DNA from: Dysgonamonadaceae bacterium
Lineage (GTDB): Bacteria > Bacteroidota > Bacteroidia > Bacteroidales > Azobacteroidaceae
Direction of reading: 5' to 3'
DNA length: 12,401 nt
Assembly (NCBI GenBank): GCA_031261015.1
Contig: JAISKG010000268.1
Span: forward strand, 1 to 12,401
In this document: positions 2 to 12,223 of the stretch, piece after piece
Position numbering within the stretch: the stretch's first letter is position 1
Layout: each line of letters begins with the position of its first letter
Position numbers and translations under genes: made by a program
The notes under the pieces: generated by a model
Told to the model about the DNA's origin: nothing
Seen by the model: the letters and a program-made list of their open reading frames with translations, nothing else
Databases searched by the model: none

Positions 2-1213
2 CCACAAAAAGTAATGAATCGGGTGTATGAAAATATCTCGGTTTCTTCCAATGTGGATTTCAATGCGAAAATCGCGTATGGCGATACCCTGATGGTTTGC
101 AAGAAAATTCGTAAAGAAAATAAGATTGAATTTCAAGAGCTGTTGCCGTCTGAAGCTCCCGAAATATTTAGATTCATTGAAGACAATAATATTAATCGTA
201 TTATTCAAGAACTGGCGAACGACATGACAGTTTTTTTCGATGGTTTTGTCGAATTTATCTTCAATAAAGATCCGTATAATCAGAAGATCGTTATGATCCG
301 GCAGAAAGAAGTCGCTTTCTCCCGGTTAAGTGAACAAAATCAAGAAACCGGTGAAATCGAATGGCATGGCTATTCCGCCAAGTGGGATCAGGGAACTCCG
401 GACGATCTAATTGTTACACCTTTTTTAGATCGCGATTGCCCGATCTACGATTTGAAAAAAAAGAAAGGTATTTATCCGGATGAAAAGACCGGTAAGTTAA
501 AAGACACCGGTGACAAACGTTTCGTCATGTCCCTGGCATTACCGACTCCCGGTAGATTCTACTATTCAAAACCTTACTGGTGGAGTATTTTTCAATCGGG
601 ATGGTTTGATTTTGCTTGTGCCATTCCACGTTTTAAAAAAGCGCTCATCAAAAATCAAATGGTGTTGAAATATCACGTTCTGATAAACACCAAATTTTGG
701 GACAAATTGTATAAAAGCGAAGGCATTACGGAAGAAAAAAAGAAAGCAGATCGAAAAAAACAGTTCTTGGATCAATTGAATTTATTTCTGTCCGGAGAAG
801 ATAACGCCGGCAAAAGCTTTGTTTCCCATTTTCAATATGACCAGGTAAAGAGTTACGAAGAACAAGATATTATCATTAAAACAATTGAATCCTTTTTTAA
901 AGGAGGAGAATATCTTGAAGATTCCGAAGAAGCGAGCAACGCGATATGCTACGCCATGGGCGTGCATCCATCTTTGCAAGGAGCTTCTCCGGGAAAAGGA
1001 AAAAGTATAAATGGAACCGAAGCCCGTGAATTATTCATAATCAAGCAGGCACTTACAAAACCTATACGCGACATGCTGTTGTTGCCGCTCTATGTGATTA
1101 AGTCAATCAACAAATGGGATCCTGATATTCACTTTGTCATACCCAATATTATGTTGACAACACTTGACAAAAATACCGGCGCCGAAAAAGTTATCGGCAA
1201 TCAAAAAATATAA
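2..1213 (+). CDS. Probable phage portal protein, 5' end outside window
   Basis: The portal is the dodecameric ring at the capsid vertex through which DNA is packaged and ejected and to which the tail joins. The frame is open to the left edge (codons P-Q-K-V precede the first ATG at base 14), so the true start is probably upstream and at least 403 residues are seen. Counting from that ATG, a segment rich in Y, W and F near residues 180-200 (YYSKPYWWSIF) leads into a helical stretch with FKKALIKNQM and a lysine-rich loop near 240. The C-terminal part holds AICYAMGVHPSLQGA near 315, followed by a Gly/Lys loop and the helix GTEARELFIIKQALTKPI. This arrangement recalls the stem and crown helices of portals, where a 'GVPP'-type turn precedes the helix. 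No signal peptide or membrane segment is visible. It sits 3 bases before the next gene, as portal and connector genes usually do. The portal call is family resemblance read by eye; another large head protein is possible. Confidence 0.62.
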   Translation, partial: PQKVMNRVYENISVSSNVDFNAKIAYGDTLMVCKKIRKENKIEFQELLPSEAPEIFRFIEDNNINRIIQELANDMTVFFDGFVEFIFNKDPYNQKIVMIRQKEVAFSRLSEQNQETGEIEWHGYSAKWDQGTPDDLIVTPFLDRDCPIYDLKKKKGIYPDEKTGKLKDTGDKRFVMSLALPTPGRFYYSKPYWWSIFQSGWFDFACAIPRFKKALIKNQMVLKYHVLINTKFWDKLYKSEGITEEKKKADRKKQFLDQLNLFLSGEDNAGKSFVSHFQYDQVKSYEEQDIIIKTIESFFKGGEYLEDSEEASNAICYAMGVHPSLQGASPGKGKSINGTEARELFIIKQALTKPIRDMLLLPLYVIKSINKWDPDIHFVIPNIMLTTLDKNTGAEKVIGNQKI

Positions 1214-1216
1214 AAA

Positions 1217-2143
1217 ATGGCACTTATAAATAATACTGACACATTTAAACAAACCGTCAAAATCGGCAAAAATGTACTTTTTGAAGTATTGTCTCCATTC
1301 ATCAAAGATGCTCAACGGTTTTATATCGAACCCTATCTGGGACGTCCGTTAATTGCCCGCTTAGAAGCGGAATTGGCAGATTCAGAAACTAAAGTAGCGG
1401 AATTACTTGTATATGCACAACGTGCCCTGGGACCTTTCGCATACATGCTCGCCACCCACGAATCCTCTATCGGTTTCGGTGATTCCGGACACACCGTAAC
1501 CCGTACCGATCACCTCGCGCCGGCAAGCGATGCTAAAGTCGAACGCGCCCGTGAAAGCGCCGAGTTTCGTGCTTGGCAGAACATGGAAGCGATGCTCCAG
1601 TTTCTGGACGAAAATCAAACTTCTTTTCCAGAATGGGAGCAAAGCCGATACCGAAGAAATCCCCGGCCCAAATATTTCCGGACGGCCGTGGAATTTCAAT
1701 TGCTCGGTATGGTTGATATTAATAACAGCCGGCTAACTTTTGAAAAGCTCATTGAGCTAATTAGAAGAATCGAACGTGCCGAAGTCATTGATCTGATCAC
1801 ACCCGAAGTTGATCTGCAGATCGGTGATCCGTTTACCAATATACTATCGAATTCGGAAGTCGTATTGGTGCAAAGCATTCAACCGTATATAGCCGCCCGC
1901 GCGGCAGCACTCCACACAAGTCAAACCACCCGTTTGCAACGCTCTCGGGCCGGGGAATTGGAGTATCGTCCGGTCATCCGTCCGCTATATGAAGATACGA
2001 CCGACACAGGCAACTACTACTCCCAGCAAGCCGACTACTGGAAAGCAAAGATTATTAAAACGCTTTCCGATATGGGTATTGACCAAACAGGTGCACTAAA
2101 ATGGAATACAGATGAAAAGAAACTTTTTTGCGATATAGGTTAA
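1217..2143 (+). CDS. Probable head-completion/connector protein (DUF6712-like)
   Basis: A 308-residue soluble protein with no signal peptide or membrane segment. It starts 3 bases after the portal stop and ends 1 base before the next start, so it is translated from the same message. The N-terminal half is mainly helical, with IEPYLGRPLIARLEAELA at residues 37-54 and a second helical block at 105-135. The middle, near 145-165, is rich in Arg, Pro and aromatic residues, and the C-terminal part is a long helix with Arg and Tyr. Size, N-terminal pattern and position after the portal agree with the DUF6712-type proteins of Bacteroides prophages, which I place by resemblance only. Helical proteins just after the portal commonly serve as head-tail adaptors, so that role is inferred. 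The gene looks richer in G+C than the portal and chaperone-type genes beside it, especially around 1480-1700. No enzyme motif is seen. Confidence 0.5.
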   Translation: MALINNTDTFKQTVKIGKNVLFEVLSPFIKDAQRFYIEPYLGRPLIARLEAELADSETKVAELLVYAQRALGPFAYMLATHESSIGFGDSGHTVTRTDHLAPASDAKVERARESAEFRAWQNMEAMLQFLDENQTSFPEWEQSRYRRNPRPKYFRTAVEFQLLGMVDINNSRLTFEKLIELIRRIERAEVIDLITPEVDLQIGDPFTNILSNSEVVLVQSIQPYIAARAAALHTSQTTRLQRSRAGELEYRPVIRPLYEDTTDTGNYYSQQADYWKAKIIKTLSDMGIDQTGALKWNTDEKKLFCDIG

Positions 2144-2144
2144 T

Positions 2145-2918
2145 ATGAGAAAATTAGAATTAAACGGCGACGTATATGCGATTCCGGCAAACTGGGATGA
2201 ATTGACTGTCGAACAAATTATTTTTTTGGTCAATTTAACCGCCAAACAAGTCACGATAGAAGAGATAAAATTGAAAATGTTACTCTTCTGCATGGATGCC
2301 CATGTGAATCGCTTTAAAGAATCCGGCCAAATTCGATTTATTATTCAGGCAGGAAAAAAGAAATATGAATTTGCGACAAAGGAGCTGCAGCCGGTAATGG
2401 ATTTATTTTCTTTCCTTTTTACAGAACAAAAAGGAAAATACCTGCTAAATCCTCTGTTAACAAAAAATCCATTTCCCACAACACAATGTGGTTGTGTAAA
2501 TGTCTATTGCAATGCTGAACAGGGTTTACAATGCCTTACGTATGGTGAATTTATTCATTTACAAACTTATTTCAGTGCGATACCGGAAAAACCGGAAAGC
2601 ATTGACAATTTTCTATCTATACTATACAAACAGAAAAACGGCTGTACATCGCCGGCGTTAATGAACAAAATGTCTCAAACGGTAAAAACAGCAATTATAT
2701 GGTACTATCTGGGAAGTATGCACTTTATATCTGAAAAATTTCCGCGCACGTTCTTCGGCGGCGGATCGCCGGACCATAATGTTTTTGAAAACCAAATGCG
2801 AATCGTTGGAGCGCTTGCCGGCAATGACTTAACTAAGCGTGAACAGGTGAACCAATCTCTACTATATGACGCCTTATATACGATGGAAATCGCAGCAGAA
2901 AATTCGCAGAAAAAATAA
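2145..2918 (+). CDS. Phage protein, tail-assembly-chaperone type
   Basis: A 257-residue soluble protein beginning 1 base after the preceding stop. The N-terminus (residues 1-30) carries LNGDVYAIPANWDELTVEQI, a pattern common in a Bacteroidetes phage family where a short beta segment is followed by 'P-x-x-W-x-E-L-T'. The middle reads NPFPTTQCGCVNVYCNAEQG (107-126) and continues to C130, LTYGEFIHLQTYF and NFLSILYK; this resembles the same family, in which 'NPFP', 'LTF/YGEF' and 'LYR/LYK' recur. Cysteines lie at 115, 117, 122 and 130 (C-x-C-x4-C-x7-C), but I see no known zinc-finger spacing. The C-terminal third is helical (TAIIWYYLGSMHFISEKFP). A role as tail-assembly chaperone, holding the tape measure protein before tube assembly, is inferred from the pattern and the tail context. 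No slippery heptamer or -1 frameshifted extension is evident, unlike in classical lambda G/GT chaperones. The gene is the last one before the hicAB cassette. Confidence 0.48.
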   Translation: MRKLELNGDVYAIPANWDELTVEQIIFLVNLTAKQVTIEEIKLKMLLFCMDAHVNRFKESGQIRFIIQAGKKKYEFATKELQPVMDLFSFLFTEQKGKYLLNPLLTKNPFPTTQCGCVNVYCNAEQGLQCLTYGEFIHLQTYFSAIPEKPESIDNFLSILYKQKNGCTSPALMNKMSQTVKTAIIWYYLGSMHFISEKFPRTFFGGGSPDHNVFENQMRIVGALAGNDLTKREQVNQSLLYDALYTMEIAAENSQKK

Positions 2919-2955
2919 AAAATGACTGTTTGGACATAAAATATAACATAAAACA

Positions 2956-2987
2956 TTTGCTTGTTTGATACTAAAATAGTATCTTTG
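2956..2987 (+). promoter_or_regulatory. Bacteroidetes-type promoter of hicAB
   Basis: The -33 box TTTG is at 2956-2959 and the -7 box TATCTTTG (TAnnTTTG) at 2980-2987, separated by 20 bases. This matches the primary-sigma promoter pattern known from Bacteroides. Transcription should begin some 5-8 bases further on, leaving a very short leader before hicA at 3005. A second TTTG at 2964-2967 is too close to serve as the -33 box. The spacer holds a perfect inverted repeat. Confidence 0.85.
2967..2983. promoter_or_regulatory. Palindromic operator candidate in the hicAB promoter
   Basis: GATACTA-AAA-TAGTATC is a perfect inverted repeat with 7-base arms and a 3-base centre. It lies in the spacer and runs into the -7 box, so a protein bound here would block RNA polymerase. 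HicB antitoxins with a ribbon-helix-helix domain are known to repress their own operon by binding such palindromes, and this HicB has that domain. Binding here is inferred. Confidence 0.75.
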
Positions 2988-3004
2988 TGTAACATTTCAA
3001 ATAT

Positions 3005-3259
3005 ATGAGTGCAAAAGATAAATTAATAGAACGATTTAAGAGGCAACCAAAAGATTTTACTTTTGACGAATTGAAGACGTTACTTGGTTACTTTGGTTTT
3101 AAAACGAATAATAAAGGTAAGACATCTGGTTCGAGAGTTGAATTTGAAAATCTTACTGATTCGCTTATAGCGCACAAACCGCACCCGTCAAACATTATAA
3201 AAGGGTATGCGATGAAACAAATACTTGATTATTTGAAAGAACATAAATATATTAAATAA
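3005..3259 (+). CDS. hicA: HicA family mRNA interferase toxin
   Basis: An 84-residue basic protein of the HicA (YcfA-like) family, a small double-stranded-RNA-binding-like fold that cleaves mRNA independently of ribosomes and stops growth when HicB is lost. Visible marks are the N-terminal helix KLIERFKRQPKDFTFDELKT (6-25), the turn GYFGF (28-32), the strand motif TSGSRVEF (40-47), the segment HKPHPSNIIKGY (57-68) and the C-terminal helix AMKQILDYLKEHKYI. Classical HicA has Gly-Ser-His; here it is Gly-Ser-Arg, the form common in Bacteroidetes homologues, so the catalytic histidine is probably H57 or H60. Length is normal for the family and no truncation is seen. The ATG lies close to the promoter with no Shine-Dalgarno sequence, so expression may be modest. 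hicB starts 14 bases after its stop. The gene is notably A+T rich (about 28% G+C over 3061-3120), consistent with acquired cargo inside the phage operon. Confidence 0.92.
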   Translation: MSAKDKLIERFKRQPKDFTFDELKTLLGYFGFKTNNKGKTSGSRVEFENLTDSLIAHKPHPSNIIKGYAMKQILDYLKEHKYIK

Positions 3260-3260
3260 A

Positions 3261-3265
3261 GGAGG
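3261..3265 (+). promoter_or_regulatory. Strong Shine-Dalgarno site for hicB
   Basis: GGAGG, within AAAGGAGGA, stands 8 bases before the hicB ATG and overlaps nothing in hicA, which ends 1 base before it. Bacteroidetes genes rarely carry such a site, and I see none of this strength before other starts in the window. It should give more antitoxin than toxin from the shared message. Confidence 0.85.
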
Positions 3266-3273
3266 ATAAATAT

Positions 3274-3615
3274 ATGGATAAACTCGAATACAAAGGTTAT
3301 TACGGAACTATTGAATACAGCGAAGAAGACAACTGCCTTTTTGGTAAAGTAGTCGGTATGCCAAGGGATTTGATAAGTTACGAGGGCAATACAGCTGCAG
3401 AGTTGTACGATGATTTTACAGGTGCGATAGATGATTATATAAATCTTTGCGTAAAAAAAGGAGTAAAACCCCGCAAATCATATTCCGGTACGCTCAATTT
3501 GCGTATGCCTGCTGAAATTCATTGCCGTATCGCATTGCTCGCGGAAAATAAGGGAACGAGTATAAATTCCTTTATTCTTCATTCAATTGAAAGTCAATTA
3601 CAGGAAGCTTATTAA
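3274..3615 (+). CDS. hicB: HicB family antitoxin with ribbon-helix-helix domain
   Basis: A 113-residue antitoxin that should bind HicA, mask its active site and repress the hicAB promoter. Residues 1-65 form the partial RNase-H-like HicB domain: KLEYKGYYGTIEYSEEDN, then LFGKVVGM, then the typical ISYEGNTAAELYDDFTGAID. A linker with KPRKSY follows. Residues 71-110 form a ribbon-helix-helix DNA-binding domain: strand SGTLNLRMP, helix 1 AEIHCRIALLAENKG, helix 2 INSFILHSIESQL. That order, HicB fold then ribbon-helix-helix, is the usual one, and both domains are complete. It is the second gene of the cassette, has the strong ribosome binding site, and ends 4 bases before the next phage gene with no terminator between. 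The order toxin then antitoxin is normal for hicAB and opposite to most type II systems. The downstream frame can be extended back over the hicB end by a TTG, but that is not needed. Confidence 0.94.
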   Translation: MDKLEYKGYYGTIEYSEEDNCLFGKVVGMPRDLISYEGNTAAELYDDFTGAIDDYINLCVKKGVKPRKSYSGTLNLRMPAEIHCRIALLAENKGTSINSFILHSIESQLQEAY

Positions 3616-3619
3616 AGAT

Positions 3620-4126
3620 ATGAATACCTATTACAATCATTTCGCTTATGGTGAAGATTTGGCGCGCCGGTTGCGTGCTATCTCCCATACCGATACCGAT
3701 CAGCATTTCTACCGCGCTACCGAAGCCGAAGAATTGCAAGATTTAATTGCTCACTTATCATCCGTTCATGGCATGATACTCGTCGCCATCGACGGGCATA
3801 ACTCCGATTTTAAATGGGCGAACTCCGATTCACTAATGGAACGATCGCAATACTTCTTCCTCGTATTACAGCAGACCGTATCGGGCGACACCGACACTGT
3901 CTTTGCCGCACAACAGGAATGCACCGGGGTAGCCCGGCAAATCATCGCCAGGATCATGAACGATGCACATGATCCGAAAGTTAAGCCTTTGCACTTTATC
4001 GATGCCGGCAGTTTCACCCTGCGTGGAGTCGGCCCCGTCGGCGACAACTTCTACGGTTCCATCCTGGGATTCAACCGGGTAGTGGGCATGAATTACCAGA
4101 TCAATACGGCAATGTGGCATGAGTAA
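3620..4126 (+). CDS. Phage connector/tail-completion candidate
   Basis: A 168-residue soluble protein. I chose the ATG at 3620, four bases after the hicB stop; a TTG at 3587 in the same frame would add 11 residues that overlap hicB and look spurious. The N-terminal part is helical (GEDLARRLRAI, AEELQDLIAHL). Strand-like runs follow (MILVAIDG near 52-59, YFFLVLQQTV near 78-87) and then FTLRGVGPVGDNFYGSILGF (132-151) and NYQINTAMW near the end. Small mixed alpha/beta proteins that end in such strands and lie before the gp10-like gene are often tail terminators or neck proteins, so that role is inferred from position and shape. The gene is strikingly G+C rich (57-60% over 3661-3720 and 3901-3960) against about 28% in hicA, so it may have a separate origin. 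It overlaps the next gene by 8 bases, which suggests translational coupling. Confidence 0.5.
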   Translation: MNTYYNHFAYGEDLARRLRAISHTDTDQHFYRATEAEELQDLIAHLSSVHGMILVAIDGHNSDFKWANSDSLMERSQYFFLVLQQTVSGDTDTVFAAQQECTGVARQIIARIMNDAHDPKVKPLHFIDAGSFTLRGVGPVGDNFYGSILGFNRVVGMNYQINTAMWHE

Positions 4127-4664
4127 TATACCTCTCTCAAAACAAATCACCAATTTGGGAAATATTCCCTTTGAATTGAGTTTAATTTCCGTGTCTGAAG
4201 TGATAAAATACCAACGTGGACAGGATCAGGAAGCTGTTGATAAATTCAATCGTGACGTTCAAGATTGGGCTAAGGAAGTTCAAGGCAAACTTAGATCCAA
4301 TGTCCGGGCTATGGTGAAAAAAGACAACAAACTTTCGTCATCCATTCGCCCGAATTTTTACAAGGACAAAACGACTAAAGAAATTAACCGTATCGGCTTC
4401 TCGTTTCGTAGAGAAGGGATTTATCTTCATTACGGTGCCGGTAAGGGACAGGGTGGTTTTCAAGGATCGAAATGGACAGACAGTTACGGTACTCTGCAGA
4501 AAACAAATCCAGACAGTTATGGGAAAATGGGAACAGGCGCCAGGCATTCCGTTGACTGGTTTAATACAATAATTAAAAAGGAAATAGAAACACTTGCCGA
4601 CATTGTCGCTGAATATTCTGCAGATTTAATTGTAGATGCAACGAGAATTTATATCCCGGATTAA
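4119..4664 (+). CDS. Tail-completion / HK97-gp10-like protein
   Basis: A 181-residue soluble protein whose ATG lies inside the last codons of the preceding gene. The N-terminal part is a helical, charged region (AVDKFNRDVQDWAKEVQGKL, 39-58). It is followed by basic residues, SSSIRPNFY (73-81) and the core INRIGFSFRREGIYLHYGAG (89-108), then a Gly-rich loop. A conserved-looking WFN (147-149) opens the C-terminal helix TIIKKEIETLADIVAEYSAD. The pattern 'F-x-F-R-R-x-G-x-Y-x-H-x-G-x-G' with a Gly-rich loop and terminal helix recalls Bacteroidetes phage proteins related to HK97 gp10, which help join tail and head. It is the last gene before a 286-base gap that carries a promoter. Function is inferred from pattern and order; a minor head protein is the main alternative. 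Confidence 0.55.
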   Translation: MSNIPLSKQITNLGNIPFELSLISVSEVIKYQRGQDQEAVDKFNRDVQDWAKEVQGKLRSNVRAMVKKDNKLSSSIRPNFYKDKTTKEINRIGFSFRREGIYLHYGAGKGQGGFQGSKWTDSYGTLQKTNPDSYGKMGTGARHSVDWFNTIIKKEIETLADIVAEYSADLIVDATRIYIPD

Positions 4665-4679
4665 AATTCTTGTCGAAAA

Positions 4680-4711
4680 TTTGCAACTGTGAAAAACAGT
4701 ACTTATATTTG
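4680..4711 (+). promoter_or_regulatory. Internal Bacteroidetes-type promoter before the membrane-protein ORF
   Basis: TTTG at 4680-4683, 20 bases of spacer, then TATATTTG at 4704-4711: an exact match to TTTG-N20-TAnnTTTG. It lies in the gap after the 181-residue gene, 17 bases before the ATG at 4729. The spacer contains a small inverted repeat ACTGT-GAAAA-ACAGT (4686-4700), too short to call an operator. Transcription would cover the small ORF and the tape measure gene. Confidence 0.75.
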
Positions 4712-4728
4712 TATATAAATTAATTGCC

Positions 4729-4893
4729 ATGTTTTTTATTGGATTCATATACGTATTAATTTGCCTTGCAATTACCTTTTGTTTCAAAGGAAATTTCGTA
4801 TATAAATTCTTATTTTTTGCCTGTATTTTTTATCTTACCCCTTTTTTAGGAATCCCATTAGTTCGTTTTATTCAACGGGCCGACGAAGTTTGA
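4729..4893 (+). CDS. Small two-helix membrane protein
   Basis: A 54-residue ORF that fills most of the 286-base gap before the tape measure gene. It opens FFIGFIYVLICLAITFCF (2-19), a clear membrane segment, has a short loop KGN, then a second hydrophobic run near 26-45 (FLFFACIFYLTPFLGIPLV) that contains two prolines, and ends in a polar tail with R46, R50, D52 and E53. No signal-peptidase site or enzymatic motif is seen. A promoter sits just upstream, and no Shine-Dalgarno sequence is visible, as with its neighbours. Small hydrophobic proteins in phage late operons include holins, superinfection-exclusion proteins and accessory lysis factors; which one, if any, cannot be told. Length is below that of common holins. 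Evidence that it is real is the promoter placement, the continuous membrane character and the lack of another use for this gap. Chance is possible, since A+T-rich DNA readily encodes hydrophobic residues. Confidence 0.6.
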   Translation: MFFIGFIYVLICLAITFCFKGNFVYKFLFFACIFYLTPFLGIPLVRFIQRADEV

Positions 4894-4950: not shown

Positions 4951-7900
4951 ATGAGCGATACAAACAGGAGCATTAAAATCACCATAGACAATTCGGAAGT
5001 AACTGGTAAATTGACAGTTACTACTCAAAAAATATCCGAATTAACTGCTAAATTGGTAGAATTAGACGCTGCAGGTAAAAAAAATTCAAAGGAATATGCA
5101 AGAACGGAAAAGCAACTGAATTCCTATACTGCAGCACAGGTAAAACAAAAAGCAGCTATTGCCGAAACAAAACGAGTATTAGAAAACCTGTCGGGAACCA
5201 CATATAACCAACTCATTACAGTCAAAAAACAACTGCAACGCGAACTGAAAAATGAAGTAAGCGGTACCGAATCATATAAGAACAAGCTTGAACAACTCAA
5301 TCGAGTTTCCCAACAAGTCGTCAAAATAAATAAAGAGATGACATCCAGTATTGGGGCACAAAATAATATGTGGAATATGGTGAAAGGATCCCTGGCTACA
5401 TTGGGTGGGAATATGCTTACTAACATAACTAACAATATTGGAAGTTTTTTTATTAATATAGCCAAATACGGATACAAGACAATTAAAGAATTTGAACAGG
5501 CAAATGCTGATTTAGCCTCCATTCTCGGAACCAACAGGGAAAATATTAAATTTCTCACCGAAGATGCTAAAAAACTGGGAGCAACTACAGAATATTCCGC
5601 CTCTCAGGTTACGTTACTCCAGACTGAATTGGCCAAATTGGGCTTTGATCCTAAGCAGATTATCGATATGACTGAACATGTTCTACGTTTCGCTACTGCT
5701 TTGGACGCTGATTTACCATCTGCAGCTACTGTATCCGGAGCAGCTTTGCGTGCCTTTGGATTGGATTCTTCAGAAACGGAACGTGTGGTTTCCGCTATGG
5801 CGGCCGGTGCGAATAAATCAGCATTGGATTTCAATTATCTTCAGACAGCAATGAGTACCGTAGCACCAGTGGCAAAAACATTCGGTTTTACGATCGAAGA
5901 TACGGTAGCTCTTCTCGGTGCTTTGTCTAATAGCGGATTTGATGCTTCTACAGCGGCAACTTCAACCCGTAATATTCTGCTATATTTAGCAGATGCGAAT
6001 GGTAAATTAGCTAAGGCGCTTGGAAAACCAGTAAAATCTATGGATGATCTTGTTCCGGCATTAGTTGAGCTTCGGGATAAGGGCGTAGATTTAGCGACTA
6101 CGCTTGAATTAACCGATAAGCGCAGTGTTGCAGCCTTCAATATCTTTTTGGATGGAGCCGAATCTCTGATCACTTTGCGCGATGCCGTTACGGACGCCGG
6201 AGACGAATTGAAACGAATGCAGGAAGAACGATTGAATACCGTTGAAGGATCAACAAAACTCTTACAATCTGCTTGGGAGGGTTTGATGTTATCGTTTTCC
6301 AGCAGTAGCGGCGTTTTTAAAAAAGCGATAGACTGGCTAACGTCTCTCGTGAATGAGCTTAATATAGCCTTGAAATCAATACAACAAATAAAACAAGAAG
6401 TACAATCTGATATCGAAGCTACTAATGCAAAAGAAGCCTTGAAATCCATCGAAGATTTAGCAAAAGCTTATGAAAAAAATGGGCATACAGTACAAGAATC
6501 TCGGAAAAAAGCCTTGGAAGACTATTCGGCCAATATGTCAAGTACAATCGAAGACCAAGAGAAAGAAATTAACCGTTTAGAAGGTATTATTTATACCAGT
6601 CCGATTGAAGGCGCGGTAAAAAATGCTGAAAAATCGGTTGTGTATTTGAAACAGAGGGTTCAATTGCTAAAATCCGAAATGGAAGCAGTTCAATCACAAT
6701 TTAAAATAGATCCTGCTGTTACTCCTCCCAGCAATTCTGATCCAAAAAACGATCCGAAAGCAGAAAAAGCCGCCGAAAAATTAAGAAAAAAAATCGCCAA
6801 AGAACAGGAAAAAATATTGGAAGACGCAAAATCCCAAATCAATATCGAAACCAAAGCCTATAATGATCGCCTGAAAGCAGCCGGCTTATTCGGTATAGAA
6901 CTTAACAAACTCAACGCCTTGCAACTGCAGGAGCGATTGAAGTTAGAAAAAGATTATCAGGATAAACTTATTCAGATTGCTATCGACGGCGAAGAAATTC
7001 GCTTCAAAAACGAAAAGGAAAAAGCCGGCGTTTCCGGCGATCCGAAAATATTTAACAAACAACAAAACCAAGTCCTTGAAATATTACAGGCAGAACACGA
7101 GGCAAACATTCAAAAAATCAAGGATGAAAGTGTCAAGAAACAAAAAGACACACAGGATTCCTACGATGCAGTTGTTTTGTCTTCATTGAAAACTATTCAA
7201 AAAGCGCAATTGGATAGTATTACCACTGTCGAAAATGCTAAGATTTTAGCGCTTTCTTCTCAGGCCAAAACACAGAAACAATACGATGAAGGATTGAAAG
7301 CGATAGAAAAAGAATCGTTTATTCAACGTATTGTCTTGCAAGAACAATACATCAACGCGCTTAAGCAGATTACTAATCCGTCGAAACAGCAACAGGAAGA
7401 ACTTACCGCCGCGGAAAATACCTTACTTGATTTGCAGACAAAAGCAAATCTAAAGAAATTAGCTGAAGAAGAAGATTTTCAGCAAAAACGCAAAGTGCTG
7501 CGGGAACAGTACGGTTTAGTTTCTCTGAACGAATCATTCCGGAACGAAATGAAGCTACTGCAAGAGCAGTACGCTAAAAAATTGCTCTCTGAAGATGAGT
7601 TTCAAAAATCAAAACTTCAAATTCAATTGGGGTATGTTTCCGAATACGCTCAACAAGCAAGCAATTTTATCCAGGCTGGCGCCAATACTGTTCAAGCGAT
7701 TGAAGAAGCAGAAACCGCCAACTTGGATGCTGAATATACTCAGCGACAATCGAACTTGCGGGAACAATACGAACAGGGAATCATTTCCGAAGAGGAATAT
7801 AATCAGCAAAAAGAACAGTTAGACTACCAACAAAAGGTGAAAGAATTAGACATACAGAAGAAGTATGCCGACGCTAATTTCGCCATGCAGGTAGCTCAAA

Positions 7901-8589
7901 TTATCGCTACTACGGCGCAAGGGGTCATCGCTGCATGGGCTTCATCCATGTCTTTAGGTCCCATTGCCGGCCCGATTGCTGCCGGAGCGCTCACTACTCT
8001 TTTGGGTATTACATCTGTAGCCCAAATAGATAAAGCAAAAGCTGAAAGAGATCGGGTGAAAGCTATGACGATCGAAGCTCCTGGCGGCGATGGTGGATCA
8101 CCCACCACATCCCCAACCGGTCAAATTGTTGTGAAACAGGCTGCAAAAGGAAAATATGATGTCGTCGGTCAAGATGATAATCGCACCTATCGCAATGTAC
8201 CTTATGCCGGTGAAGCTTACACCGGATTTGTATCATCACCCACTTTGGTGGGCGAAAGAGGCAAGGAACTGATCATCTCCAGCGACGATTTCAACCGTTT
8301 GCAACGCCATATTAATTTTCCGATGGTAGTTAATGCAATCAACGACGCACACAACAAGCGTGTTCCGCAACGCGCCTCCGGGAAATATGACGATTTGCCT
8401 CCGACTTCGCCTGACAAGCCTTCATCTTATACGCCCGTTTTTGACAACGAAACGGCAAAACGTATGCTTGCTATCCTACAGCGTCTGGAAGATGGAGATA
8501 TTACCGTACAAACGAATTACGGTATCACCGAACTGGAAGCAAAGCAAAGACAAAAAGTCGAAGCTGAATCTAAATTCACCCGAAAATGA
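4951..8589 (+). CDS. Phage tail tape measure protein, TP901 family
   Basis: A 1212-residue protein that sets tail length and is ejected with the DNA, sometimes helping to cross the host membrane. Residues 1-150 are a charged helical N-terminus with repeated EL-x-x-QL patterns. The TP901 core spans about 180-450 (from ANADLASILGT through SAWEGLMLSF) with the typical SGFDASTAATSTRNIL and MAAGANKS blocks. From about 455 to 975 it is a long K/E/Q-rich coiled coil. Near 980-1027 lie hydrophobic helices (AQIIATTAQGVIAAWASS, then GPIAGPIAAGALTTLLGI), probably membrane-spanning on ejection. A Gly-rich linker leads to the C-terminal module with VPYAGEAYTGFVSSPTLVGE near 1084-1103, common in Bacteroidetes tape measures. 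No peptidase or lysozyme domain is visible. At about 1.5 angstrom per residue the upper bound of tail length is near 180 nm, implying a long tail; siphovirus or myovirus cannot be settled. The stop overlaps the next start by 4 bases (ATGA). Confidence 0.95.
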   Translation: MSDTNRSIKITIDNSEVTGKLTVTTQKISELTAKLVELDAAGKKNSKEYARTEKQLNSYTAAQVKQKAAIAETKRVLENLSGTTYNQLITVKKQLQRELKNEVSGTESYKNKLEQLNRVSQQVVKINKEMTSSIGAQNNMWNMVKGSLATLGGNMLTNITNNIGSFFINIAKYGYKTIKEFEQANADLASILGTNRENIKFLTEDAKKLGATTEYSASQVTLLQTELAKLGFDPKQIIDMTEHVLRFATALDADLPSAATVSGAALRAFGLDSSETERVVSAMAAGANKSALDFNYLQTAMSTVAPVAKTFGFTIEDTVALLGALSNSGFDASTAATSTRNILLYLADANGKLAKALGKPVKSMDDLVPALVELRDKGVDLATTLELTDKRSVAAFNIFLDGAESLITLRDAVTDAGDELKRMQEERLNTVEGSTKLLQSAWEGLMLSFSSSSGVFKKAIDWLTSLVNELNIALKSIQQIKQEVQSDIEATNAKEALKSIEDLAKAYEKNGHTVQESRKKALEDYSANMSSTIEDQEKEINRLEGIIYTSPIEGAVKNAEKSVVYLKQRVQLLKSEMEAVQSQFKIDPAVTPPSNSDPKNDPKAEKAAEKLRKKIAKEQEKILEDAKSQINIETKAYNDRLKAAGLFGIELNKLNALQLQERLKLEKDYQDKLIQIAIDGEEIRFKNEKEKAGVSGDPKIFNKQQNQVLEILQAEHEANIQKIKDESVKKQKDTQDSYDAVVLSSLKTIQKAQLDSITTVENAKILALSSQAKTQKQYDEGLKAIEKESFIQRIVLQEQYINALKQITNPSKQQQEELTAAENTLLDLQTKANLKKLAEEEDFQQKRKVLREQYGLVSLNESFRNEMKLLQEQYAKKLLSEDEFQKSKLQIQLGYVSEYAQQASNFIQAGANTVQAIEEAETANLDAEYTQRQSNLREQYEQGIISEEEYNQQKEQLDYQQKVKELDIQKKYADANFAMQVAQIIATTAQGVIAAWASSMSLGPIAGPIAAGALTTLLGITSVAQIDKAKAERDRVKAMTIEAPGGDGGSPTTSPTGQIVVKQAAKGKYDVVGQDDNRTYRNVPYAGEAYTGFVSSPTLVGERGKELIISSDDFNRLQRHINFPMVVNAINDAHNKRVPQRASGKYDDLPPTSPDKPSSYTPVFDNETAKRMLAILQRLEDGDITVQTNYGITELEAKQRQKVEAESKFTRK
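7498..7821 (+). repeat. Repeated SHOCT-like helical hairpins inside the tape measure
   Basis: Three protein-level copies start with L-[RQ]-EQY at residues 850, 870 and 936. Two carry the full pattern EQY-x5-[LI]-[LI]-S-E-[DE]-E-[FY], as in EQYAKKLLSEDEFQ and EQYEQGIISEEEYN, followed by a charged helix. The pattern resembles the short helical turn of SHOCT-type motifs ('Y-x-x-G-x-I-S-x-E-E-Y'). The copies are degenerate at DNA level, so they reflect old duplication or convergence. Confidence 0.5.
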
Positions 8590-10754
8590 GCATACAAATT
8601 ATCAAAAAATTAACCGGCGAATTTTTCGATCTTCCGACCGACTATGTTATTGAAGTCGAAAAAAACAATCCGGTTTTTGAGAGAAAAGGGAGTCAAACGG
8701 TGACGATCAACTTTCCGGTGAGCGATCGTAACCGCCGATTGTTCAACTTTCCCTACCGGTTAGATAAATCGAACCGTGAAGAAAACACGATAGATGTTAT
8801 TATTCGTACAGGTTCCATCCAACAGCGCGGATTACTATCTGTTATTCCTGCAAATAATAGATCTATAGCCGCCAATATCGGTTACGATGAATCTGAAATG
8901 TATTCCGTCATGGAAAATATGCAATTAAGAGATCTTCCCAATCTTCCGCAATTCACGCTTACCGGCGACAACATGATCAGTAAGATAGATTCAATGCTGA
9001 CACATTTGACAGCCGTGATGAATGAGCAGCTACAAGCCGATTATTATGTGTTTCCAATATGGATCAATCTGCAAGACGAATATCGTTTAGGCTTGAACGA
9101 AATTGTTGACTATCCCTCCACGGATCCTAATCTTGGCAAATTGCGGGCGTGGAATAGCCGGACGATTTTGCAAAAGTCCGGAAGCGATAACATCGAAATT
9201 AATGTACCCAAGGGTTATGGCGTATCTCCATTTCTGAAGGTATATCGCATCCTTGAACTTATATTTGACTATTTTGGCTTTACTGTCGCCGAAGACCCTT
9301 TCAAAACACACCGACAACTTAGCAAATTAGTAGTCCTGAATAACACGATAGATGCTATCTTAACCGGAAGCCTGTATTATCGTGATATGATGCCAGATGT
9401 AAGCATCCAGTCCTTTTTAGACACTCTGTACGCGAAATTTGGACTGGTTTATTTTATCGATTCAAATTCTCGGAGTGTACGGTTCAAATTTGTAAAGGAT
9501 CTGGTTGCGACCAATACAATCGGAGCTATTGATATGAATAAATTCAAAACTGAAGAACCCTCGATTACTTCTTCATCTCCACGACAACTACGATTGAAGA
9601 TGAATCGTGAAATGGAAGGAACGGCCGTACTGGGCGATACCTATGCTAAATTTTTAGATAAATTTGCCGGTCAATTTACCGAATTGGACACTGGAAATGC
9701 AACTCAGAAATTCTATCCTGCCTATTCTATATATAAGATTCTCAATATTTTCCGGTTAAATTCCGGAATACTGGATCAATCTGTTTATACATCGTCTGCT
9801 TTTTTCGACTGGGACCAACAGACACCAGGCGTTGAATACGAAGATGTGTCTATGGATGATTTATGTCTTCCATTTTATGGATATGATATGATTAATGCCC
9901 TTCAATATGGCGTTAGAGCTAAACATATCTACTCCGAACTGATTGTTTCCGGACAGACGCAAGAGAACAGTTCCGATACTGCTAAGTTGGCATTTGCGTT
10001 CGCGTGGGGTATGCAGGAATACAAAAATAATGGATTTAACTATTTTTTTGCTTCGCAGATCAACCGCGATGCGAATGGAAATTATATGTACGACGCAAAC
10101 AATCAAAAATATGACATTGCACTAACTTGTATCCGGGAAGACGGCCTGTACAATCGTTTTTGGAAAGAATATGACGCATTTATTAGGCATTCCAATCAGG
10201 AAGTTACCGGAAGATTTAAAATCTCCGATTTAGAAATTTTGAATCTTAAAATGTATGACCGGGCAGTAATCAATAACCAGCCTGTCTTGTTAAAACAAAT
10301 CAAATATACATTAAACCAACCGAATAGTATTGCGGAAATAGTTTTCCGAACGTTACGATTATACAAACCCTATAATCTTTCGATTGAACAGTCAACGCCG
10401 AATTATGCCAATCAAATATATTATTGGGCAGCCAATATCAATGAAACTCTTCCGGACAGTCAGATTACGGCACAATCTGATTTTTATGCATGGAAGAAAA
10501 TTAATATTAGTTCGGATGTTTATATGACCGTAAATGGAGTGCAAACTCCAATCATTCATCTATCATATTTACCTCCCACTCAGCAACAATATGAGTCAAA
10601 CGAGCAGAGAATATACACATATAAAAAGACGTATTATTATTATGTTCAGATCTCTATCGGAGGAATAGGAAACGATCAATCGGTCATAGTAGAAAAATCA
10701 GCCGAATCAATCGTTACAATCACTTATTCTCCCGCAATAATCAATTACGACTGA
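8586..10754 (+). CDS. Probable tail hub / distal tail protein
   Basis: A 722-residue soluble protein whose start overlaps the tape measure stop, the standard place for distal-tail and hub proteins. Residues 1-60 hold a beta-rich opening (LTGEFFDLPTDYVIEVEKNN, then GSQTVTINFPVSDRNRRLF) that recalls proteins packing onto the tail tube. Around 215-235, SPFLKVYRILELIFDYFGFT and around 273-302, SIQSFLDTLYAKFGLVYFID followed by VRFKF, are two helical modules of the kind 'F-L-x-x-L-x-x-x-F-G' seen in gp27-like hub proteins. The middle is rich in Tyr and Phe, and residues from about 640 to 722 look like an Ig-like or beta-sandwich cap with a very Tyr-rich strand (KKTYYYYVQ). In Bacteroidetes phages a 600-750-residue protein commonly follows the tape measure. 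No lysozyme or peptidase motif is seen. The hub role is inferred from position and motif shape. Confidence 0.6.
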   Translation: MSIQIIKKLTGEFFDLPTDYVIEVEKNNPVFERKGSQTVTINFPVSDRNRRLFNFPYRLDKSNREENTIDVIIRTGSIQQRGLLSVIPANNRSIAANIGYDESEMYSVMENMQLRDLPNLPQFTLTGDNMISKIDSMLTHLTAVMNEQLQADYYVFPIWINLQDEYRLGLNEIVDYPSTDPNLGKLRAWNSRTILQKSGSDNIEINVPKGYGVSPFLKVYRILELIFDYFGFTVAEDPFKTHRQLSKLVVLNNTIDAILTGSLYYRDMMPDVSIQSFLDTLYAKFGLVYFIDSNSRSVRFKFVKDLVATNTIGAIDMNKFKTEEPSITSSSPRQLRLKMNREMEGTAVLGDTYAKFLDKFAGQFTELDTGNATQKFYPAYSIYKILNIFRLNSGILDQSVYTSSAFFDWDQQTPGVEYEDVSMDDLCLPFYGYDMINALQYGVRAKHIYSELIVSGQTQENSSDTAKLAFAFAWGMQEYKNNGFNYFFASQINRDANGNYMYDANNQKYDIALTCIREDGLYNRFWKEYDAFIRHSNQEVTGRFKISDLEILNLKMYDRAVINNQPVLLKQIKYTLNQPNSIAEIVFRTLRLYKPYNLSIEQSTPNYANQIYYWAANINETLPDSQITAQSDFYAWKKINISSDVYMTVNGVQTPIIHLSYLPPTQQQYESNEQRIYTYKKTYYYYVQISIGGIGNDQSVIVEKSAESIVTITYSPAIINYD

Positions 10755-10757
10755 TTT

Positions 10758-10793
10758 TGTCCTTTTATTAATAGTAAAATCGAGCGAAATTTG
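10758..10793 (+). promoter_or_regulatory. Shared leader motif TGTCCTTTTA-N22-TTTG, copy 2
   Basis: TGTCCTTTTA at 10758-10767, three bases after the stop of the 722-residue gene, then TTTG at 10790-10793 with 22 bases between, exactly as in the tape measure leader. TTTG lies 15 bases before the ATG at 10809, and both leaders end ATTTATG. The sequence between the elements is otherwise unlike copy 1. A classical TAnnTTTG box is not met (GAAATTTG here). Confidence 0.45.
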
Positions 10794-10808
10794 AATAAAA
10801 TTTAATTT

Positions 10809-11024
10809 ATGTCCAAACAAACAATCATATCATTGCCCTCAATCTCCGGAATTAATGTTCTATTCAATAGATGGAAGCTAATTAATATAGATTTAACGAT
10901 GAGTCAATTTTATTCATTTCTTCAAAATCCTTCTCCGGAAAGAGAAATTTTCTTAGAGTTAAATTGTGCTGAAACCAGTATGGAAATTGGTAATGTAATT
11001 ATCAAACAACTAATGCCAAAATGA
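10809..11024 (+). CDS. Small phage protein of unknown function
   Basis: A 71-residue protein that I do not recognise. It opens with a hydrophobic strand (TIISLPSISGINVLFNRW), has a helical middle (MSQFYSFLQNPSPERE), then a probable strand FLELNC and a short helix IGNVIIKQLM. It has no membrane segment of clear length, no signal peptide and no motif. The ORF is supported by its leader, which repeats that of the tape measure gene, and by the ATGA overlap with the next gene, which suggests coupled translation. It lies between two tail genes, so a small tail-tip or assembly role is likely but unproven. Confidence 0.65.
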   Translation: MSKQTIISLPSISGINVLFNRWKLINIDLTMSQFYSFLQNPSPEREIFLELNCAETSMEIGNVIIKQLMPK

Positions 11025-12223
11025 TTGTTTTGCACACACCGGCTCAATTATCCTTTGCAAATAATCCGATGATATTTGAATTTTCAACGGATAGTTCCAA
11101 CTACGCTTACCTGACTGTAAGTGTCAATGCCGGATCGGAATGGAAATTTTTTTCAGCCATATATGTACCAATCGGATCAAATCCATACAGGATTAAATTT
11201 GATCTGTCGGAAATTGTTAAAACCTTTCTTCCGCTACCGCAATTGGAGGATGTAGATGTCATTACAGCAAATGTGATTGATTTTATAACTGATTATTCAA
11301 TCGAACTTGAACAGGACGATGCTGTCTATAATTTTGACGGTAAGGTATTGCCCGGAGGTGTCAGCAAAAAAATGCTGCGATATCTTCAGGAAAATAATAC
11401 GGATATCTTTGCTTTCAAATATCAAAATTTCTCTCGAAATTTCTTCCTGACTACACGTAGCGATGGCCGGCATATTGTATTAAAAGAATCGGAATTGACG
11501 CCCTTTTATTTCATAGGATCTCAGAATACAATAACAATATTGACAGATCAGGAAAGAACGTATGTCTTATCTTCGATTGATGAATCGAATGTATATGCTT
11601 TAGATCTGAATGTCCTAAGAAAATTAAATTTTTACATCTACAATGAGATGCCGGTTTATTTCGCAGTTTTGGTAAATGGCGACTTTGTATTCGACATCAC
11701 CTTATTGAAATCTTCGCTTTCGTCCAACCGCCAGGTGATTGAATTTCTCAATTCACTGCATGTTCCGGAGCGAATTGAAATAACGGGAAAACCGATTTCC
11801 GAACCCGAATTTGACGAATTGCTTCCTTTTAATACGTATGATAATCGGATAGATGATTATCTGGAAGCTCACGATAGAAGGGCGATAACTGAAGTAATTC
11901 ACGCAGAAGCCGGATATAAATCGATCCAGGAATTTCACTTTATTCGCGATATGCTGCAAAGCAGCGAACAATTCCTCGTAAAAAATGATGGTAAAAAATT
12001 ACCGGTAATTATTTCTTGCGATTCATTCAAGCATGATATGATCCCTGTTGCGCCCGGATCAGTTCCGTTAACTATACGTAGCATTGAAAAAGAAATTAAT
12101 TATTCTCCGGAAGTTGATTTATCCGATGTACTGCACTTCCGGGAAGAATGGTTCAAAAATGGCTATCTAAATGCAATGGGTTTAATCTATGCAAGTTCAT
12201 TAATCTATTCACCAAACATATAA
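11021..12223 (+). CDS. Putative tail-tip structural protein
   Basis: A 400-residue soluble protein with no enzyme motif, start coupled to the preceding gene by a 4-base overlap and stop 1 base before the next ATG. The N-terminal 100 residues are beta-rich: IVLHTPAQLSFANNPMIFEF, then YAYLTVSVNAGSEWKFFSAI and IKFDLSEIVKTFLPL, resembling a beta-sandwich that recurs in Bacteroidetes phage tail proteins ('P-x-x-I-x-F-x-L/F-S-T-D'). The middle continues with alternating strands and DE-rich turns, and the last 100 residues are mixed (YKSIQEFHFIRDMLQ, IEKEINYSPEVDL). Its place after the tape measure and hub genes and before a probable fibre gene suggests a distal tail or baseplate component. I cannot name the family; the call rests on pattern and order. 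Confidence 0.55.
   Translation: MIVLHTPAQLSFANNPMIFEFSTDSSNYAYLTVSVNAGSEWKFFSAIYVPIGSNPYRIKFDLSEIVKTFLPLPQLEDVDVITANVIDFITDYSIELEQDDAVYNFDGKVLPGGVSKKMLRYLQENNTDIFAFKYQNFSRNFFLTTRSDGRHIVLKESELTPFYFIGSQNTITILTDQERTYVLSSIDESNVYALDLNVLRKLNFYIYNEMPVYFAVLVNGDFVFDITLLKSSLSSNRQVIEFLNSLHVPERIEITGKPISEPEFDELLPFNTYDNRIDDYLEAHDRRAITEVIHAEAGYKSIQEFHFIRDMLQSSEQFLVKNDGKKLPVIISCDSFKHDMIPVAPGSVPLTIRSIEKEINYSPEVDLSDVLHFREEWFKNGYLNAMGLIYASSLIYSPNI

Follow-up and report, generated by a model that had tools for sequence, protein, structure and literature searches.

Genomic context of the hicAB pair

The occurrence of a toxin-antitoxin pair among the virion genes of a phage raises two questions: whether the pair is an old component of the operon or acquired cargo, and which function it might serve there. 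The window, i.e. the entire 12,401-nucleotide stretch of DNA analyzed here, corresponds exactly to a single contig (C13), the end of which falls within the operon (Table 1). Portal, adaptor, and g3 genes are located on one side of hicAB, and g6, the neck-like g7, and the tape measure gene are located on the other, in agreement with the first-pass annotation, which had assigned the pair to a phage structural operon. The virion genes on both sides, together with a contig ending inside the operon, rule out a cassette that is not phage-borne. The window appears to derive from a tailed phage with hosts among the Bacteroidota, and its portal protein probably lacks the N-terminal part due to the contig end (the homologue in relative L007 has 479 aa).

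The two genes bordering hicAB had been described as chaperone-type (g3) and as a connector candidate (g6). Searches of Pfam, PHROG, PDB, and BFVD do not support the former label: the g3 protein of the window has no Pfam match above cut-off and no PHROG match, an unnamed family (phrog_25418) is matched by 8 of 37 aligned g3 homologues, and the structure model of g3 (pLDDT 93.7) yields no PDB match at E<=0.001 and six BFVD matches at the same threshold, five of which are uncharacterised phage proteins and one an entry without a listed name. As for g6, it is a virion gene as proposed, but its fold is that of a tail terminator.

Table 1. Features of the window discussed in the text (window coordinates; strand given where applicable).
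Feature	Position	Strand	Basis or remark
g1, portal protein	14-1213	+	Annotated portal of Leef_1 vs g1 profile, E 7e-89; homologue in L007
g2, head-tail adaptor candidate	1217-2143	+	Pfam DUF6712, 62.3 bits; Leef_1 'adaptor' vs g2 profile, E 8e-46
g3, phage-only protein, left border of cargo site	2145-2918	+	
Entire insert as compared with empty sites (from g3 stop to g6 start)	2919-3619		701 bp
Portable unit (promoter, operator, hicA, hicB)	2950-3616	+	Match to L106
Promoter pattern TTTG-N20-TATCTTTG, Bacteroidales type	2956-2987	+	By consensus
Perfect palindrome GATACT-N5-AGTATC, candidate HicB operator	2967-2983		Overlaps -7 box
hicA, toxin gene	3005-3259	+	84 aa; GSR/HKPHP-motif subfamily
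hicB, antitoxin gene	3274-3615	+	113 aa; HicB domain and Arc-type DNA-binding domain
g6, tail-terminator fold, right border of cargo site	3620-4126	+	Start codon 4 bp past hicB stop
g7, HK97-gp10-like neck/tail-completion candidate	4119-4664	+	Pfam PF04883, 16.8 bits, below cut-off (21.4)
Tape measure protein	4951-8589	+	Pfam PhageMin_Tail, 1.5e-35; PHROG tape-measure families

A second small cargo-like unit is found between g7 and the tape measure gene (4680-4893), where a promoter pattern at 4680 (TTTG-N20-TATATTTG) is followed by a 54-aa hydrophobic ORF (4729-4893). At the same place, L007 encodes an ORF that is similar by eye, together with its own promoter pattern and, likewise by eye, a terminator-like hairpin.

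The pair had been described as complete, and this is confirmed by two intact reading frames with Pfam and PHROG family matches, arranged toxin first on the same strand, with the hicA stop at 3259 and the hicB start at 3274. HicA falls within the Pfam HicA family (27.8 bits, cut-off 27) and matches PHROG 8887 'toxin' (E 2.9e-18, 66.4 bits). HicB matches both the Pfam HicB domain (57.4 bits, cut-off 21) and the Arc DNA-binding domain (24 bits, cut-off 20.4), as expected of a DNA-binding antitoxin, as well as PHROG 9151 'HicB-like antitoxin' (E 5.8e-35). NCBIfam returned nothing above its cut-offs and PADLOC returned no match for HicB. Homologues are numerous, with 3376 for HicA (best non-self 88%) and 381 for HicB (best 90%); among the 120 listed for each protein, all taxon-bearing names are those of Bacteroidota, and most of the 120 listed for HicA contain PF07927. 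In comparison to the copy in L106 (see below), pN/pS values of 0.19 for hicA and 0.25 for hicB indicate purifying selection.

Evidence for insertion of the cassette

At the level of sequence, the locus is a real, complete, phage-borne HicAB cassette that has demonstrably been inserted. Single-protein pattern searches returned nothing for g3 and g6 in IMG/VR or for g3 in named genomes, and relatives were instead retrieved by portal and g6 alignments; the comparison comprised 63 portal and 12 g6 relatives in IMG/VR, family- and order-level genomes, and the phage record MT835542. Clustering of g3 at 90% identity produced 54 clusters, including that of the window. It had been suggested that empty sites in related prophages would reveal an insertion, and such sites are indeed common: g3 and g6 are separated by only -77 to 93 bp in 31 of the 45 other clusters with both genes placed, and by 155 to 6506 bp in the other 14. 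Two further clusters were resolved from the rest of their records (L031/L032, ~7.3 kb; L055, ~13.8 kb), which brings the loaded sites to 16 of 47, and six clusters (L028, L056, L084, L036, L021, and L070) are outside this count. In a genome of the host family (G040, one of 45 including that of the window), g3 and g6 are 48% and 52% identical to those of the window and lie 1 bp apart (L007), and the gap is 4 bp in L091 and 7 bp in L077. G033 has a weak g6 match, with g3 placed 79 bp upstream by its profile.

The limits of the insert can be read from two directions. The range originally given for the cassette (2940-3619) lies near both the g3-g6 gap (2919-3619) and the stretch shared with a foreign copy (2950-3616). 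The latter is located on contig BNXY01000018 of Bacteroidia bacterium PG1894_26 (L106), which is 81.6% identical to the window at the nucleotide level over 667 bp, from just upstream of the promoter to one base beyond the hicB stop. Based upon these boundaries, the mobile unit consists of the promoter and the two genes. In L106 (6370-7597), the cassette copy is situated between two ORFs having a stretch in common, which by eye resembles what we take to be pyruvate:ferredoxin oxidoreductase. The best HicB matches in named genomes are from Candidatus Symbiothrix sp. Hs463_bin62 (85%, at a contig edge) and PG1894_26 (76%), and the best 80 such matches include one from a Lachnoclostridium MAG and one on the complete chromosome of Prevotella communis. 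Stretches bearing HicB, with up to 7 kb per side, were obtained from named genomes as well as from contigs of viruses (L105-L184 and L189-L194), and none of them matches the profiles of g1, g2, g3, g6, g7, or the tape measure protein; in the same scan, matches were confined to L185-L188, which had been fetched for g6. Two records filed as phage with hicAB, MT836442 (L025) and MT835992 (L026), look like pieces of bacterial chromosome and were dropped as evidence; near hicAB, they encode SecA-like and glutamate-synthase-like genes, as named by eye. The cassette has a GC content of 33.0% vs 40.8% and 39.3% in its flanks; however, an equally low value occurs in 12 of 206 other segments of cassette length, and composition on its own is not decisive. 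No short repeats were seen by eye at the insert borders.

A tree of g1-g3 (49 rows), made by a quick method with SH-aLRT support only, places the window as sister to L028 (SH-aLRT 95), followed by the empty L007, and implies five or more switches between the empty and the loaded state (loaded being >=120 bp, with L028 counted as loaded). Within the near clade, gaps of at least 120 bp occur at g3|g6 in 13 of 19 clusters, compared with 0 of 24 at g1|g2 and 0 of 19 at g6|g7. Lesser sites exist at g2|g3 (5 of 24 near-clade clusters, up to 378 bp; 13 of 50 clusters overall, up to 4956 bp) and at g7|tape measure (3 of 13 clusters, up to 2727 bp). Hence, g3|g6 is special, though not the sole junction of this kind. 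The frequent loading of this junction in the near clade would also be expected if hicAB were an old, vertically inherited part of the virion operon of this phage group that most relatives have lost. However, the loads differ from one another, the sister L028 bears a different HicAB, and the HicAB type of the window was found by its subfamily HMM in 0 of 53 other clusters, for the sequence stretches examined, which also rules out a hicAB common to all related phages. Vertical inheritance is further contradicted by the fetched HicB-bearing stretches, which are devoid of the six virion genes of this phage used as profiles. This explanation was already disfavored and we regard it as extremely improbable.

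As far as its sequence goes, hicAB was acquired as cargo, at a junction of the virion operon that is loaded recurrently, a reading that follows from the empty sites, the homologous unit on a contig stretch without genes of this phage, and the varying cargo at the junction; the proposal of inserted moron-type cargo is upheld on the same grounds. An empty site, a foreign copy with near-identical ends, and a different cargo in the sister phage resolve the insertion to nearly single-base precision.

A recurrent cargo junction next to the tail terminator gene

The position of hicAB had been considered unusual, which no longer applies: g3|g6 is a recurrent cargo site, and HicAB pairs of another subfamily occur after g3 in three more clusters. 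The window-subfamily HMM had missed these pairs, which carry the GSH motif, and they were detected with a second profile built from three GSH-type HicAs. In total, GSH-type HicA is found in 5 of 53 other clusters (L028, L029-L032, L089, L088, and L021/L197). In the first three, it is located after g3 (Pfam HicA 61.6-70.8 bits) with the same position and toxin-antitoxin order as in the window; g6 is on the far side in L029-L032 and L089, and the right border of L028 is unseen. In L088, it lies between g6 and the tape measure gene, and in L021/L197 between g3 and the tape measure gene, with no g6 recognized there. Palindromes are visible by eye upstream of the GSH-type hicA as in the window, whereas the partner antitoxins have no Arc match, unlike the window HicB. 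The L028 partner matches HTH_26 above cut-off; those of L089 (HTH_28) and L030 (HicB_lk_antitox) have matches below cut-off only and are taken as HicB from position plus this weak match. In an alignment, L089 HicA is 9% identical to that of the window, which we read as a separate acquisition. L089 and L030, in turn, share 90% of HicA residues and 75% of cassette DNA despite the distance between their phages in the tree, suggesting transfer between phages. A tyrosine-recombinase gene is present inside the cargo site, upstream of the GSH-type hicAB, in L196 (1182-2114; G436), and its copy in L030 matches Pfam Phage_integrase.

Other loads are diverse. The cargo scan covered 76 proteins, i.e. the window HicB plus 75 of the 93 ORFs listed as cargo for 18 junction loci (L055 in part), and returned 24 Pfam families at E<=0.001 and 19 PADLOC models at 1e-10. 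The former include KilA-N (4), HicA (3), DUF4468 (3), exonuclease (2), HIRAN (2), and one each of KAP NTPase, DNA methyltransferase, and integrase; the latter include Cas13b, Csx27, PDC-S20, PDC-S48, PDC-M03B, and a type II methyltransferase. The largest load, in L055 (IMGVR_UViG_3300033419_000075), includes a type VI-B locus (6111-11458, with L195 6632-7950) encoding a Cas13b of 1138 aa (PADLOC E 1.4e-191) and Csx27 (E 3.2e-53) along with a repeat array of 65-bp period, in which 17 copies were found. To one side of this locus lie portal, adaptor, and g3; g6, g7, and the start of the tape measure gene are found farther away on the opposite side. Six stretches between exact repeats, some of which span several repeat units, have no exact match in the 200 records beyond L055 and L052. 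Among 14 loaded relatives, a promoter pattern is present within 90 bp after g3 in three (L009, L039, and L095) and a terminator pattern 2-32 bp before g6 in five (L009, L033, L048, L075, and L095), both counted without shuffle control; the 76-bp junction of L010 also has a terminator pattern before g6.

The junction therefore has the hallmarks of a hotspot, i.e. fixed flanks and varying content, with gaps of -77 to 6506 bp across the 45 clusters and ~13.8 kb in L055. More broadly, we lean towards the view that tailed phages of Bacteroidota maintain a cargo bay in the virion operon beside the tail terminator gene, which has been filled repeatedly and independently and would serve as a phage-defense island exchanged with host chromosomes. 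Its contents would include two HicAB subfamilies, a KAP NTPase, exonuclease, methyltransferase, KilA-N, and, once, type VI-B CRISPR-Cas13b. A non-exhaustive literature search found no paper on the g3|g6 junction, which could readily supply candidate anti-phage modules from phages of Bacteroidota. In our opinion, this junction, loaded time and again with HicAB and defense-like genes, is of greater interest than the HicAB pair itself.

Promoter and candidate operator

The cassette had been credited with its own promoter, and a matching pattern of what we take to be the Bacteroidales form is indeed present upstream of hicA (Table 1), by consensus alone and with an in-window count that is not above chance (two occurrences; shuffle mean 0.77, at least two in 54 of 300 shuffles). 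As this count is not significant, the evidence consists of the location of the pattern and of a family-conserved palindrome. Of 64 relatives, only 19 have the strict pattern upstream of hicA, L106 not being among them. The palindrome spans the first half of the -7 box. The HicB family provides 83 upstream stretches that are long enough and non-identical (window included). A perfect inverted repeat that stops 0-2 bases short of a TTTG is present in 28 of them, compared with a mean of 0.82 and a maximum of 3 in 50 rounds of dinucleotide shuffling, and 53 have such a repeat when one mismatch is permitted (12.2 in shuffles); the 83 stretches are mutually related and the control consequently overstates their independence. 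According to excerpts of a review, Yersinia HicB3 represses via an operator over the -10 box, which makes autorepression by HicB the natural reading here (PMC11594946). Presumably, the HicB of the window represses its own promoter by binding to this palindrome. The palindrome is a directly testable operator candidate for a large HicB family.

No terminator was recognized between hicB and g6, either in a pattern scan of 2919-3639 or in a separate scan, and cassette expression is therefore not cleanly separated from that of the late genes. In the strict sense, a phage moron has its own promoter and its own terminator. The hicAB genes are extra genes between two that abut or nearly abut in relatives (the 31 of 45 clusters above) and, since no terminator of their own was recognized, they are moron-type cargo in the broad sense only.

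Predicted function of the pair

By family, HicA is an mRNA-cleaving protein with a dsRBD fold, as stated in excerpts of one source (PMC10865869), and the GSH histidine is important in characterized HicAs, as summarized in the review portions cited above (PMC11594946). In the window HicA and 119 close homologues, Arg (residue 44) occupies the position of this histidine in 120 of 120 aligned rows, the equivalence being assigned by motif alone; sequence search found no relative of this HicA with a solved structure. Within the same rows, the HKPHP motif is nearly invariant (H57 in 119 of 120, H60 in 120 of 120). Either this subfamily would use other residues or its chemistry would differ.

The arginine substitution, the lack of a recognized terminator between hicB and g6, and the start of g6 just 4 bp after hicB could all be accommodated if the cassette were mainly a regulator, in which HicB at its operator sets read-through into g6, g7, and the tape measure gene and HicA is weak or inactive. 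This seems unlikely to us, however, as cassettes of this type are common outside this phage, selection on hicA is purifying, and both histidines are retained nearly without exception across the subfamily.

We instead consider it quite probable, taken as a whole, that a ~667-bp HicAB cassette was inserted intact at the cargo junction and forms a self-repressed toxin pair expressed in the lysogen. The sequence itself shows that the genes are intact, where the insert begins and ends, that the site is empty in relatives, that a foreign copy is homologous, and that the cargo changes; all this fits the entry, without damage, of a compact cassette known as a type from genomes of Bacteroidota at the border of g3 and the tail-terminator gene. 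HicB on the palindrome over the -7 box would repress the hicAB promoter, from which the pair would be expressed in the putative lysogen independently of the late genes. HicA would be held by HicB and would cleave mRNA once HicB is lost or outrun, such that loss of the prophage would be punished or growth would stop upon infection by another phage. A role in prophage addiction or in protection against other phages is likely. The cited portions of the review state that a phage-defense role of HicAB still awaits experimental proof and that mycobacteriophage Adephagia carries a HicAB-like pair for which no phage was identified as the target (PMC11594946). A third scenario is suggested by the second hicAB in the same assembly (L104, on G000 contig C181): the phage HicB could neutralize chromosomal HicA-type toxins of the host as counter-defense. 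Yet the window HicB and the C181 HicB are only 40% identical and the phage brings a toxin gene as well, rendering this scenario very improbable.

The HicAB pair itself is of a known kind, as phage-borne HicAB and morons have already been recognized. Similar to the self-repressed cassette proposed here, Tab of Pseudomonas phage JBD26 is cargo with its own promoter inside a late operon, and it provides anti-phage defense from the prophage; unlike hicAB, it is encoded on the minus strand, with terminase genes on either side, and its protein product blocks tail assembly, as described in the excerpted report (PMC10884400). In available sections of a study of Porphyromonas gingivalis, HicAB dyads are reported in prophages, i.e. 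in temperate phages of Bacteroidota, and solo toxins are reported to be placed in genomic islands of phages (PMC10367356). The lambdoid phages mEp234 and HK106 likewise carry a phage-borne hicAB with the toxin first, in the immunity region, with HicB and HicA 35.5% and 35.7% identical to those of the window. In mEp234, the pair directly follows the gene of the CI-type repressor, within the lysogeny region, whereas that of the window lies between virion genes.
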